A stretch of DNA of 64,000 nt from NCBI RefSeq assembly GCF_024494575.1, contig NZ_JANHDO010000002.1:186001-250000 (forward strand), given 5' to 3'. The stretch comes from Halorubrum salinum. Lineage in GTDB: Archaea; Halobacteriota; Halobacteria; Halobacteriales; Haloferacaceae. A model generated the notes under the pieces. The model was not told the origin of the DNA. It worked only from the letters and a program-made list of their open reading frames with translations, and did not search any database. Position 1 is the first letter of the stretch. Each line of letters begins with the position of its first letter. The position numbers and the translations under genes are program-made. Shown piece after piece: positions 29,948-35,761 of this stretch.

Positions 29948-30643
29948 TCAGTCGGCCGCTTCGGGCTCTTCGACGGCCTGACTCTCGGCCGCCGCCTCGG
30001 CGGCCTCGGCCTTCTCCTCTTCTTCTTTTTTGGCTTTGATCTTCTTCAGCCGGAAGATCTCTTCGCGCTCCTGCTCTTCGAGCTTCTGTTCGATGTACTC
30101 CTGATTCTCGTATAGGCGGGGCAAGAGCGTGAACTCCAGGGCGTTCACGCGGCGCTTCGTGGTCTCGATCTCCGTGAGCATCTTCTTCATCGCCGTCTCG
30201 ACCTCGGCGGCGAGGATGATCGATTCGAGCAGCTCCTCGTAGGCGTCCGCGGCCTCGTCGATGCGGGCGGACGAGCCGAGCAGCCCGTAGCCCCGCTCGT
30301 CGAGGCTCTTTTTCACCTTCGAGGACTCGATCTGGGGAACGACGACCCCCATGATGTTCTTCGACTGCGTCGTGATCTCCGGGTGCTCTTTCAGCGCCGC
30401 GGCCGCGCCCCGAACGGCGACGTCGCCCTCCATTGCTCGGGCCATGTCGATCTTCCGCTGGGCCGTCTCGTAGTTCTCAGAGACGTCCGATCGGACATCC
30501 TGCGCTTGGTCGAGGATGTCCATGAACTCCATGATGAGGCCGTCACGCTTCTGTTCGAGGGTGTCGTGACCGCGCTCGGAGAGTTCGATGCGGTCCTCGA
30601 TCGCCATCAGGTTCTTGCGTGTCGGTTTGACGTCCTTGGCCAT
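29948..30643 (-). CDS. atpD: A-type ATP synthase subunit D
   Basis: 231-residue central-stalk subunit that rotates inside the A3B3 head. The N-terminus [32 protein letters not shown] and the C-terminal coiled coil ([35 protein letters not shown]) are diagnostic. The last 30 residues are an Ala/Glu-rich tail. In the usual archaeal order this gene follows atpB closely. Here it is about 3.7 kb away, separated by crtY, bop and bat. An apparent promoter (30679-30688) would allow its own transcription. Confidence 0.96.
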
Positions 30644-30678
30644 CTATTGAGGAGAGATAACGAACCGAGCCTGTTAAC

Positions 30679-30688
30679 CTTTTATTGT
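30679..30688 (-). promoter_or_regulatory. Probable promoter of atpD
   Basis: On the minus strand CAATAAAAGG lies 36-45 bases before the atpD ATG, within an AT-rich island. It would give a short leader of about 10-15 bases and independent expression of subunit D. Confidence 0.5.
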
Positions 30689-30757
30689 TTGCCGACGAGA
30701 CGCCCGAGACCGGAACCGTCAGATCGCGCTCTCACGGGTCTCGACCCGACCGCCGCG

Positions 30758-31585
30758 TCAGTCGCCACCGAACTCGGCGGACGTCCGGTCCGGGTCGTCG
30801 GCCGGTCGTCGGTCACCGGCCGCCGTCTCCGTCGTCCACCGAACCGTCACCAGCCGGTAGAGGATCAGCCCCTGTACGACGAACAGGTTCGTCACGAGGA
30901 AGAACGTCGCCTCTTCGATCGGGAGCCCCCCGATCGTGAGCCCCGTGGTGTACCGCGCTGAGAGCACCCAGATCCCGAACTCGATTGCGATCCGGTCCGC
31001 GAGACAGAGGTACAGCGTCGGGAGGAGCGTCCCGAGCGCGACGGTCCGACGGCGCGTCCAGAGCTGCGGGGCACCGACGATCCACTGCAGCGCTAGCACC
31101 GGTGCCGCCCACGCGAGGACCGCACCGAGGTAGAACGCGCCGTCAGTGCCGAGAAACCGCCACCCGGCGAGTCCGATTCCGGTCGCGACCGCGAGCCCCC
31201 CGACCCGCCACGCGACCGGACTGCCGCCCCGCTCCCACGTCGCGTCCGCCTCGAAGTGTGAGAGCCACAGCGCGGTTATCCACGGCTGCACGACGATGAA
31301 CAGGTACTCTTCGAGCGGCGCGTGCCAGAGCCGAAGCAGGGTTCGCTCCTCGCCGTACCACCACACGCCCCTGGCGATGAGGTAGTTGTCCCACGGCGTC
31401 GTGTACGCCAGCGCGACGACGGTGATGATCACCACGCCGGCCCAGTAGTGTCGCCAACCGCGTGGCCGGTGAGCGTCGCTCCCTGCATCCACAGACCGGC
31501 TCACGAAGCCGGTCGCGATGAGGAACAGCACGGCTGGTACGAGGAACGCGAGGTGAAACTGGATGTAGGTGAACGGGACGATCAT
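30758..31585 (-). CDS. crtY: Lycopene beta-cyclase, CrtYcd type
   Basis: 275-residue membrane enzyme with seven or so hydrophobic helices, made of two fused CrtYc/CrtYd-like halves. Each half has the conserved PxE(E) motif: APLEEYLFIVVQPW in the first and LPIEEATFFLVTNL in the second. PWDN occurs in YTTPWDNYLI. It closes the rings of lycopene to give beta-carotene, the precursor cleaved to retinal for bacteriorhodopsin. It lies 122 bases downstream of bop on the same strand, consistent with a shared light-energy function. The cleaving enzyme (Brp/Blh) is not in the window. Confidence 0.94.
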   Translation of the reverse strand: MIVPFTYIQFHLAFLVPAVLFLIATGFVSRSVDAGSDAHRPRGWRHYWAGVVIITVVALAYTTPWDNYLIARGVWWYGEERTLLRLWHAPLEEYLFIVVQPWITALWLSHFEADATWERGGSPVAWRVGGLAVATGIGLAGWRFLGTDGAFYLGAVLAWAAPVLALQWIVGAPQLWTRRRTVALGTLLPTLYLCLADRIAIEFGIWVLSARYTTGLTIGGLPIEEATFFLVTNLFVVQGLILYRLVTVRWTTETAAGDRRPADDPDRTSAEFGGD

Positions 31586-31707
31586 CGGTGGGTTCGAGTG
31601 GCCGCACGGATCGATTCGCGGGACGCGTCAGGCGGCGGCGACGCGCCGCCGGACAGCGGCGTCAGCGATGCTCCGGCGCGGAGCGCGGACCGAGTCGTTT
31701 GCGCCGG

Positions 31708-32457
31708 TCAGTCGGCCGCTCCCGGCTCGGCGGCCGCCGATCCGGCGGCGTCGAGCACCTCGCGGCTCGACAGCAGGATGAAGCCGAAGCCGACCTTCGC
31801 GACCAGATCGAGCACCATGAACCCGGCCGTCTCGATGTTGAGCGAGACGATCTGGAGCCCCTCGGTCCCGAGGAGCCACCACACCGGGTACACGAGCCAG
31901 ACGACGACGATCAGCGTCCGGAGCGTGCTGAACGTCGACGCGGCCTGTCCGGACAACCGGGAGGCCTTCTCGTCGAGCGAGCCGTACAGCATGTACAGGA
32001 GCACGAGCAGGAAGCCGGTGGAGACGCCCCACCAGACGAGCCGCGTCCCGCCCGCCGAGAGCACGGCCGCGCTCGTCGACAGCGTCGCGATCGCACCGGT
32101 ACCGATCATCAGCACGTCGAGACCGACGAGCGAGGCGAGCTGGTTCCGGTTCGCCCCGGCGAGAAGTCCGAGGTCGATGAGGAGCAGCGGCGTCGTGAAC
32201 AGCCAGTCGGTGTACCGCGCCCAGTAGATGGGCAGCTCCTCGCCGCCGAGCGTCACCGTCGTCAGTCCGAACCCGAGCGCCATCGCGAGGTAGTTGACGA
32301 ACGCGATGGCGGTGATGAATATCGTGACTATATAGAACTCTTGTCGCCGCCTATCGGTCTCACCCCAGCCCCTAGCGATGAAGTACAGCATCCCTAGGAA
32401 CATACCTAGCGTCCCGATCCACAGCCAAATCCCTTCGCTACCGGGTTGTGCCATCAT
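31708..32457 (-). CDS. bop: Bacteriorhodopsin-type light-driven proton pump
   Basis: 249-residue seven-helix retinal protein. All key proton-pump residues are present. Arg81 and Asp84 ([10 protein letters not shown]) correspond to Arg82 and the counter-ion Asp85. Asp95 ([11 protein letters not shown]) corresponds to proton donor Asp96. Glu199 and Glu209 correspond to the release group Glu194/Glu204. Asp217 and the retinal Schiff-base Lys221 ([11 protein letters not shown]) correspond to Asp212/Lys216. Chloride pumps have Thr at the first Asp, and sensory rhodopsins lack the Asp96 equivalent, so neither fits. Sequence flavour ([32 protein letters not shown]) is closest to my memory of the Haloquadratum bacteriorhodopsin. 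The start could be either of two adjacent ATGs. Confidence 0.97.
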
Positions 32458-32461
32458 GGCG

Positions 32462-32514
32462 CATTTATCAGTACGTCGCGAGTTCTACTAAGCGACGTAC
32501 ACAACCAGTGTGGT
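32462..32514 (-). promoter_or_regulatory. bop promoter region: UAS-like element and 9-bp inverted repeat
   Basis: Reading the minus strand toward bop: ACCACACTGGTTGTG (32500-32514) resembles the bop upstream activator sequence of Halobacterium (ACCcnACTAGTTnG as I recall it), the site linked to Bat activation. Next come GTACGTCGC (32492-32500) and GCGACGTAC (32471-32479), perfect 9-bp inverted arms separated by 12 bases. The TTAGTAG between them is at the TATA position, about 28-35 bases before the ATG. An AT-rich TGATAAATG (32462-32470) lies immediately before the start codons. Confidence 0.6.
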
Positions 32515-32572
32515 ACGCCTCGGTCGTCGACCGGATCCGCGTGCACGTCCGTTCCACGCGTTCCGCGTGAGA

Positions 32573-34240
32573 CTACCGCTCGAAGATCGCCGCCGCGATC
32601 TTGCGCTGTGCCGCGCGCAAGTGCTGGTGGAACGTCGATCGCGTGACGCCCATCGAGTCGGCGATCTCGTCGCCGTTCGTCTCGTGCGGCCACTCGAAGT
32701 ACCCGCTCGTGTGTGCGCGTACCAGCGCGGCTCGCTGTCGCGGCGTCAGCCGCGATTCGACCTCGGCGACGAACTCGCGGCGGGTCTCGTGCGTCTGTTC
32801 CCGCCGCCGATAGCTGCGAAGGTCCGCGCCCGAAAGGCGCTCTAACGCGTCCGCCGCGAGCGAGCGGGCCAGCGCCTCCCGGCCGACCTCGATCGTCGCG
32901 ACCGCGACGCCATCGGACACGTCCCAACTGCACAGCTCGCCGCTGTACTCCCGTATCAACTCCGCCAGCGGGGTCTCGTCGAACGACAGTTCGACCACTG
33001 GCGTGTCCGTCTCCGCGGCGAGGATCGAACGGACGGAGACGCCCGCCGCCTCGGCTGCGGCGTGAACCGTCTCGGCGTCCACGTCCGCCGCGCCGTCCAG
33101 CTCGAACAGCAGCGACCGCTCGGCGCGGTCACCGACGGTACCGGTGTGGCGGAGCGAACACGACAGCGCCTCGCTGAACGAGCCGAGGGGATGAGAAGCG
33201 AGCGCCAACTGGAACCGGACGACGCTGTCCCCGCGGAGCGTCCGCTGGCTCTCCAGCGCGTTGATGCCGATCGCGACGGTCCGGCCGAGCGCCGTCAACA
33301 CGTCCCGCTCGTGGCGGCGGAACTCCTCTGTCTGCGCGTAGACGGCGATGACGCCGTAGGTCGCCTCGCCGAAGTGGAGCGGCACGCCCGCGACCGCGGC
33401 CGCCTCGGCCGGATCCTCCGGACCGATCGGTTCGAGTCGCACGCGACGGTCGGCCACCGCCGCCGCGACGGCGGCTTCGACCGGCCGATCCCCGGCGTCG
33501 CCGGCCGCAACCGAGACCGACTCGACCGCCACCCCGACCTCGCCCTCCGAAGCGTGCGGTTCGACCGTTTCGGTCGCCGGGTCGTAGGTCCCGATCCACG
33601 CGCTGGAGTACGTGTCCGCGATGCTCCGGACGACCGCCCGACGCAGCTCTTCCCGCGACGACGCCAGCGCCACCGCCTCCGTGACGTCGGCGACGACGCC
33701 GTCCAGCCGCTCCAAGAGACGCGCTTGTGCGGTCCGCTCGTGTTCGATCCGCGTCGCCCGGTCCGACGCGGCCTGCTCTGCCCGCTTCCGGCGCGTGACG
33801 TCTTGTTGAAAGCCGACGTAGTACGCGACCTCACCCGATTCGTCCCGAAGCGGTGCGATCGTCACCTCGTTCCAGAAGCGGTCACCGCTCCGACGGTAGT
33901 TGCGGAGTTCGACCGTCACGGCCTCGCCGTTCTCGATTGCGGTGCGCATCTGTCGCACCGGCTTCTCCCGCGTCTCCTCTCCCTGAAGGAACCGACAGTT
34001 ACGACCGACCGCGTACGACGGCGAGTACCCGGTCATCCGCTCGAACGCCGCGTTCACGTAGATCAGCGGCATGTCCGGCTGGCTCGCGTCCGCGATCGTG
34101 ATTCCGACCGGTGCCTCGTCCATCGTCCGCGTCTTCAACGCCTCGTCGACGGCGTCGGTGCTCGCCGACCGCACCGATCCGGACGCGCGTGCCGACCGTG
34201 TCGACCCCTGATCGAGATCCGGGTTCTCCGGCCGTGTCAT
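32573..34240 (-). CDS. bat: Bat-type bacterio-opsin activator with LOV/PAS, GAF and HTH domains
   Basis: 555-residue regulator encoded just upstream of bop on the same strand. An N-terminal PAS/LOV domain (about residues 38-152) contains GRNCRFLQG with the photoactive-type Cys82. The flavin-contact residues are also there: Asn114 and Asn124 (NYRRSGDRFWNEVTIAPL) and Gln145 (YVGFQQD). A GAF-like domain follows (about 180-325), then a Bat-specific region. The C-terminal HTH_10 domain (LTPRQRAALVRAHTSGYFEWP, then VTRSTFHQHLRAAQRK) binds DNA. In Halobacterium, Bat activates bop in response to low oxygen and light. Here bop, crtY and possibly itself are likely targets. Confidence 0.93.
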   Translation of the reverse strand: MTRPENPDLDQGSTRSARASGSVRSASTDAVDEALKTRTMDEAPVGITIADASQPDMPLIYVNAAFERMTGYSPSYAVGRNCRFLQGEETREKPVRQMRTAIENGEAVTVELRNYRRSGDRFWNEVTIAPLRDESGEVAYYVGFQQDVTRRKRAEQAASDRATRIEHERTAQARLLERLDGVVADVTEAVALASSREELRRAVVRSIADTYSSAWIGTYDPATETVEPHASEGEVGVAVESVSVAAGDAGDRPVEAAVAAAVADRRVRLEPIGPEDPAEAAAVAGVPLHFGEATYGVIAVYAQTEEFRRHERDVLTALGRTVAIGINALESQRTLRGDSVVRFQLALASHPLGSFSEALSCSLRHTGTVGDRAERSLLFELDGAADVDAETVHAAAEAAGVSVRSILAAETDTPVVELSFDETPLAELIREYSGELCSWDVSDGVAVATIEVGREALARSLAADALERLSGADLRSYRRREQTHETRREFVAEVESRLTPRQRAALVRAHTSGYFEWPHETNGDEIADSMGVTRSTFHQHLRAAQRKIAAAIFER

Positions 34241-34302
34241 GTACGAACATGGCGTCGAACGACCAAAACGTACGGGGTCGACGAGTCCGGGTCGCGGCGC
34301 AG

Positions 34303-34316
34303 CCGCTCGCGAGCGG
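34303..34316. terminator. GC palindrome between atpB and bat, possible terminator
   Basis: CCGCTCGCGAGCGG is a perfect 14-base palindrome in the 99-base gap downstream of atpB (minus strand). It is preceded on that strand by a short T-rich stretch (TTCGTTTTC). It may mark the end of the main ATP synthase transcript before bat. Confidence 0.35.
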
Positions 34317-34339
34317 TCGAAAACGAAGGGAAAGCCGCG

Positions 34340-35761
34340 TCAGTCGGCCACTTCGACGACTTCGCGCTCGGAGTCGTCCTCGCGGTAGTGCTCTTCGATG
34401 AACTCCTCGTCGATCCGGTTGAGTGCGTCTTTCGGCAGCATCGAGAGCAGGTCCCAGCCGATAGAGAGCGTCTCCTCGATGGTGCGGTTCGTCTCGAAGC
34501 CCTGGTCGACGAACTCCGATTCGAAGGCGTCCGCGAAGTCGAGGTACTTGTTGTCGAGTTCGGAGAGCGCCTCGCGGCCGACGATGTTCACGAGGTCGCG
34601 GAGGTCTTCGCCCTCCGCGTACGCCGCGAACATCTGGTCTTTCACGTCGGCGTGGTCCTCGCGGGTGAGCCCCTCGCCGATCCCGTCGTCCATCAGCCGC
34701 GACAGGCTGGGGAGGACGTTGATCGGCGGCTGCAGGCCCTGACTGTTCAGGTCGGGGTCGACGTAGATCTGTCCCTCCGTGATGTATCCGGTCAGGTCCG
34801 GGATCGGGTGGGTGTCGTCGTCGCCCGGCATCGTGAGGATCGGGATCTGGGTCACCGAACCGTCACGGCCTTGGATCCGACCGGCGCGCTCGTACAGCTG
34901 CGCCAGGTCGGTGTACATGTACCCGGGGTAGCCACGCCGGCCGGGGACCTCCTCGCGGGCCGCCCCGATCTCGCGGAGCGCCTCGCAGTAGTTGGTCATG
35001 TCCGTCAGGATGACGAGGACGTGGTAGTCCTTCTCGAAGGCGAGGTACTCGGCCGTCGTCAGGACCATCCGCGGCGTGACCGTCCGCTCGACTGCGGGGT
35101 CGTCCGCGAGGTTCATGAAGACGACGGAGCGCTCTAAGGCGCCGGTGCGCTCGAAGTCCTCCATGAACTCGTTGGCCTCCTCTTGGGTGATCCCCATCGC
35201 GCCGAAGATGACGGCGAACTCGGAGCTCTCCTCGTCGTCGCCCTCCTCCTCTTCGGGGACGCTGGCCTGCCGGGCGATCTGCATCGCCAGTTCGCTGTGC
35301 GGCTGGCCGGAGCTGGAGAAGATCGGGAGCTTCTGGCCGCGAACGAGCGTGTTCATCCCGTCGATCGCGGAGACGCCCGTCTCGATGAACTCCTCCGGGT
35401 ACTCCCGGGAGTAGGGGTTGATCGCCGCGCCGACGATGTCTTGGCGCTCCTCGGGGACGATCTCGGGTCCGTCGTCGATCGGACGGCCCGACCCGTCGAG
35501 GACCCGTCCGAGCAGGTCCTCGGTGACGGGCATCTTCATCGTCTCGCCCAGGAAGCGGACGGACGCGTTCTGGTCGATACCGGAGGTGCCCTCGAACACC
35601 TGAATGGCGACGACGCCATCCGAGGATTCGAGCACCTGTCCGCGCAGCGTCTCCCCCTGTGCCGTCTCGATCTCGACGATCTCGTCGTAGCCGATGGCCT
35701 CGTCGACCTCGGCGTACACCAGCGGGCCGCTGATCTCGGTGATGGTTTGGTACTCTTTCAT
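34340..35761 (-). CDS. atpB: A-type ATP synthase subunit B (regulatory nucleotide-binding)
   Basis: 473-residue B subunit of the A3B3 head, non-catalytic. It opens with [20 protein letters not shown] and contains [19 protein letters not shown] in place of a functional P-loop. The family signatures [15 protein letters not shown] and [20 protein letters not shown] are present. The C-terminus is acidic. It is the last gene of the contiguous block H-I-K-E-C-F-A-B, starting 2 bases after atpA ends. The bat gene follows after 99 bases, whereas subunit D would normally be expected near here. Confidence 0.97.

Follow-up and report, generated by a model that had tools for sequence, protein, structure and literature searches.

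The published consensus of the upstream activator sequence (UAS) of Halobacterium, in the form given in secondary sources, served as the point of reference for the current work. In Halobacterium the UAS is bound by Bat, which thereby switches on a promoter whose TATA box is weak (PMC1447603, PMC1502140, PMC1885257), and the bop TATA box of H. salinarum is the non-canonical sequence GTTACA (PMC2121645). An imperfect inverted repeat lies over the TATA boxes of the H. salinarum brz-brp promoters, and has been interpreted as regulatory (PMC2253796).

The locus described here is located in a stretch of 64,000 nucleotides from Halorubrum salinum (referred to below as the window), and contains a UAS, a weak TATA element and a perfect 9-bp inverted repeat within a single short intergenic region. 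With a bop UAS already known in Halobacterium, the bop promoter of the window is of the Bat type, and we hold with considerable confidence that it is an ordinary and strongly conserved representative, whose module is also present at the Halorubrum halorhodopsin gene (hop) and whose 9-bp dyad is most likely a coincidence with no separate function.

Gene context and layout of the bop promoter

The initial annotation assigned the repeat to the promoter of bop, which was borne out since a bop gene (PF01036) starts at 32457 on the - strand; its product is 92-97% identical to Halorubrum orthologues, the closest named loci being those of Halorubrum species, with bop 93-97% identical. The activator gene bat is present on the same strand with its stop codon 115 bp 5' of the bop ATG, and is found directly upstream of bop in many relatives too, just as a counterpart of the retinal synthesis gene comes after bop in many of them. 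The resulting bat-bop-brp cassette is positioned between atpB and atpD (A-type ATP synthase genes; 29948-35761), with all genes on one strand. The order atpB-(bat)-bop-(brp)-atpD is repeated in many haloarchaea, and Haloarcula has it without bat.

On the bop strand, the order of elements is ACCACACTGGTTGTG, GTACGTCGC, TTAGTAGAACTC, GCGACGTAC and TGATAAATGCGCC, followed by the ATG (Table 1). The exact inverted repeat GTACGTCGC-N12-GCGACGTAC, as originally described, was thereby confirmed at 32471-32500. Its arms are located 14-22 and 35-43 nt 5' of the bop ATG with the expected TATA position between them, and they do indeed flank a non-canonical TATA element. Base 32500 is common to ACCACACTGGTTGTG and the UAS-proximal arm, and the proposal that this abutting sequence resembles the bop UAS proved correct, the sequence being a genuine and strongly conserved element.

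Table 1 Features of the bat-bop region, with positions given relative to the window
Feature	Position	Strand	Basis or remark
brp/blh-type retinal synthesis gene, downstream of bop	30758..31585	-	position and weak Pfam match (PF18916 Lycopene_cyc, E 7e-9)
bop, bacteriorhodopsin-type proton pump, 249 aa	31708..32457	-	PF01036, E 9.6e-68
Start-proximal arm (GCGACGTAC on bop strand, GTACGTCGC on + strand), most likely coincidental	32471..32479	-	poorly conserved
12-nt spacer of the dyad (TTAGTAGAACTC on bop strand)	32480..32491		
Non-canonical TATA element CTTAGT	32487..32492	-	in dyad spacer, one base shared with arm
UAS-proximal arm (GTACGTCGC on bop strand, GCGACGTAC on + strand), UAS tail and linker to TATA element	32492..32500	-	conservation
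Bat-type UAS ACCACACTGGTTGTG	32500..32514	-	conserved position and match to UAS core
18-bp palindrome frame TACCACACTGGTTGTGTA	32498-32515	-	5/9 symmetric pairs here
bat, PAS-GAF-BAT-HTH_10 activator, 555 aa	32573..34240	-	PF13426, PF13185, PF15915, PF04967

The UAS-TATA module at bop and hop

Genomes of the family, together with named genomes of haloarchaea, supplied bop loci with 82 distinct promoters. In 74 of these 82 promoters the distance from the start of the best UAS match to the start codon is 53-57 nt, and 57 of the 74 score at least 11/13 at that position, as compared to none of 8200 shuffled promoters. The UAS of the window possesses 11 of the 13 consensus bases and starts 56 nt before the bop ATG. 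Exactly 22 nt past the UAS start, TTA is present in 39 of the 61 promoters with a UAS and TT in 9 more, the window having its TTA at this offset as do most relatives. Per-column conservation is high across the UAS, the linker and the TTA, and low in the start-proximal arm. Judged by these alignments, the unit under conservation is CCNNACTNGTTNNG-N8-TTA and not the 9-bp dyad. Four features by which a Bat-type bop UAS is recognized were found, being a match to the core, a fixed position, conservation across orthologues, and a bat gene both in the genome and in the cluster.

As far as can be judged from the sequences compared, the dyad symmetry that matters is the one inside the UAS: 18-bp frames on the UAS contain a mean of 5.46 symmetric pairs out of 9, versus 2.31 elsewhere in the same promoters, and the palindrome is perfect (9/9) in Halorussus (L073, TACCACACTAGTGTGGTA) and Halohasta (L058, TACCATACTAGTATGGTA). 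Halorubrum and related genera mostly have GTTGTGTAC as the downstream half-site, in place of GTTNGG, and this degeneration of the palindrome within the lineage (GTTGTG for GTTNGG) weakens a simple reading in terms of a symmetric dimer. In the mechanism that we favour, the palindromic UAS (consensus CCNAACTAGTTNGG, here CCACACTGGTTGTG) at 56 nt before the bop start codon would, by analogy with Halobacterium, most likely be bound by a dimer of the neighbouring Bat (PAS-GAF-HTH_10), which would then recruit TBP/TFB, under conditions of low oxygen and light, to a poor and non-canonical TATA element whose TTA is placed 22 nt into the module.

A pattern scan of the 2.73-Mb genome with CCNNACTNGTTNNG-N8-TTA returned exactly two perfect matches, one at bop and one at hop, with none for the control. 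The second match (G000:C4:119517-119541; L119, L150) precedes the start codon of the halorhodopsin gene by 56 nt and has the same TTA offset, and hop of this species carries a perfect 14-bp palindrome of the bop type (CCCAACTAGTTGGG). A complete CCNNACNNGTNNGG at -55 to -57, with TTA at the TATA position, is common to every one of the 30 Halorubrum hop promoters examined (background: 8 of 1950 positions with at least 7 of the 8 bases), and most of these promoters contain the variant half-site CCTTAC; hop promoters sampled outside Halorubrum are mostly without the module. A literature search, conducted largely among papers free of subscription, returned no earlier report of the module at hop. 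The presence of the module at both bop and hop of Halorubrum, which was unexpected, predicts co-regulation of the proton pump and the chloride pump, and the half-site variants of the two promoters represent natural material for matching HTH_10 activators to their sites.

When one mismatch was allowed in CCNNACNNGTNNGG-N8-TTA, 13 matches were obtained versus 5 for a reversed-pattern control. Besides bop and hop, two of these relaxed matches (L206 and L207) are located 56-57 nt before a start codon, and since neither has an evident link to phototrophy, we restrict any proposed regulon to bop and hop. The former (G000:C1:115483-115507) consists of the one-mismatch sequence CGCGACCCGTCAGG-N8-TTA, starts at a distance of exactly 56 nt from a downstream 228-aa ORF, and may be due to chance. 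Separately, Halorubrum archaerhodopsin promoters (e.g. L131, L134 and L138) were observed to contain the UAS-like variant CCTGACTGGGTTGG at 55 nt before the start codon.

The conserved element could instead be bound by a protein other than Bat, such as another HTH_10 protein (Boa type) or a small zinc-finger protein of the Brz type. In H. salinarum, bop is additionally under the control of Brz and Brb (PMC2253796, PMC3184054), the CCTTAC variant at hop is suggestive of a second factor, and the conserved sequence is still found where bat is not a neighbour: Haloarcula and others keep a diverged element without a neighbouring bat, so that a different HTH_10 protein may bind there. However, the H. 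salinarum UAS has been assigned to Bat (PMC1502140), and promoters with an adjacent bat match the UAS more closely on average than the others (10.13 versus 8.79 of 12 specified bases, a difference confounded by phylogeny). We consider another binder unlikely, and retain Bat as the probable activator of the bop promoter.

The 9-bp dyad

The expectation that the dyad exceeds chance was not clearly supported. Counting perfect 9-bp arms with a spacer of 3-20 nt, where overlapping windows in longer repeats each contribute, the window contains 52 such arm windows as compared to 17-47 in ten dinucleotide shuffles. When the 115-bp bat-bop intergenic region was shuffled, at least one such repeat was present in 71 of 4000 cases (1.8%), a frequency to be read in the light of this promoter having been chosen afterwards. 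These counts make the repeat unremarkable for the window and mildly unusual for the bop promoter. A pattern search for the exact 30-bp dyad found a single copy in the 2.73-Mb genome, so that the further GTACGTCGC-N12-GCGACGTAC sites for which the initial annotation advised a search are not present among exact matches.

The two arms were then compared across relatives (8 of the same genus, and a set of 56 promoters). Among the same-genus relatives, identity to the window is 82% for the UAS and 81% for the UAS-proximal arm, versus 46% for the start-proximal arm; in the 56 promoters the UAS-proximal arm is 66% identical. Within the start-proximal arm, only C-R-T-A is common to the genus, the GCGA columns being conserved at 12% each, and the GCGA half needed to complete the dyad was seen in no genome but this one among those compared. 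Conservation of the arms in close relatives, one of the points on which the initial annotation had staked its proposal, thus holds for the UAS-proximal arm and fails for the start-proximal one. Complementarity between arms of the same promoter was 4.25 of 9, versus 4.37 when arms were mixed between species (8 same-genus relatives), and 4.30 versus 4.15 in the 56 promoters, where 9.6% of mixings reached the observed value. None of the relatives compared has kept the arms complementary, the maximum being 6/9, and no co-variation between the two arms was seen in their promoters. This low complementarity implies that the dyad is confined to this genome and that conservation of the UAS-proximal arm has a different cause.

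The dyad had been put forward as a possible target of a dimeric regulator (Bat or a repressor), a proposal undermined by the 46% identity of the start-proximal arm within the genus and by complementarity at the level of mixed pairs. As a conserved operator, the dyad was rejected in view of alignment, complementarity and background counts. A genuine but recently gained operator, at which a dimeric regulator placed across the TATA box would block or modulate transcription, would be consistent with perfect arms that are unique in the genome and straddle the TATA element, and with the low frequency of such repeats in shuffled promoters. Nevertheless, the arms are complementary in no relative compared, a second exact copy is missing from the genome, one arm is already accounted for by the conservation of UAS and linker, and comparable repeats are common in the window, which makes a recent operator highly improbable.

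A function in RNA, whereby a 9-bp hairpin in bat read-through transcripts would terminate or stabilise the bat mRNA, is if anything slightly harder to sustain. The isolated 42 nt fold at -15.2 kcal/mol (z -2.73), and in H. salinarum the gene preceding bop has transcripts that stop near the bop TATA box (PMC3184054), but the whole intergenic RNA folds in an unexceptional manner (z -1.10), the stem lacks conservation and is followed by no T-run, and bop mRNA would lack the stem if transcription starts near the ATG. As an RNA hairpin or terminator the dyad was rejected, being weak and unconserved. Least credible of all is a combined reading, in which the Halorubrum proton and chloride pumps are placed on one palindromic module (CCNNACNNGTNNGG-N8-TTA, at -56), with bop- and hop-type half-sites read by Bat or its paralogues, and in which the private dyad over the bop TATA box additionally provides a further layer of control in this species.

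The dyad as a coincidence is explained most simply by the conserved UAS tail and linker (GTACGTCGC) having been matched, by chance, by a non-conserved stretch past the TATA element. The conservation of C-R-T-A inside the start-proximal arm within the genus counts against this reading. The comparison distinguishes the element under selection from a repeat that catches the eye but probably has no meaning, and refines the consensus of the bop activator site across haloarchaea to a palindrome at a fixed spacing from a non-canonical TATA box.

Comparison with the Halobacterium systems

An H. salinarum-like genome (G227) was uninformative on the UAS, since only 91 bp of its contig precede the matched bop sequence. 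Its locus (L120, G227:C1:92-871) specifies a 100% identical bacteriorhodopsin with a different N-terminus, and the contig end together with the altered N-terminus could be due to an insertion element located at the 5' end of bop. The Halobacterium-like locus L121, whose bop is 92% identical to that of H. salinarum, carries the UAS CCATACTGATTGGG at 53 nt before the ATG, with TTAC at the same 22-nt offset.

The dyad of the window resembles the H. salinarum brz-brp repeat in overlapping a TATA box within the bop cluster, but differs from it in being associated with other genes, in its place, and in not being conserved. The promoter itself corresponds to the Halobacterium Bat UAS in that it is located 5' of a weak TATA box, contains the ACC..ACT.GTT core, and has bat in the cluster; the TATA element likewise shares the TTA(C/G) core and the UAS offset of its Halobacterium counterpart, being CTTAGT here versus GTTACA. 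Unlike in the Halobacterium bop regulon, the downstream half-site here and in related genera is GTTGTGTAC and not GTTNGG, bat is positioned directly 5' of bop on the same strand, and the exact composite is found also at hop and at no other gene in the genome.
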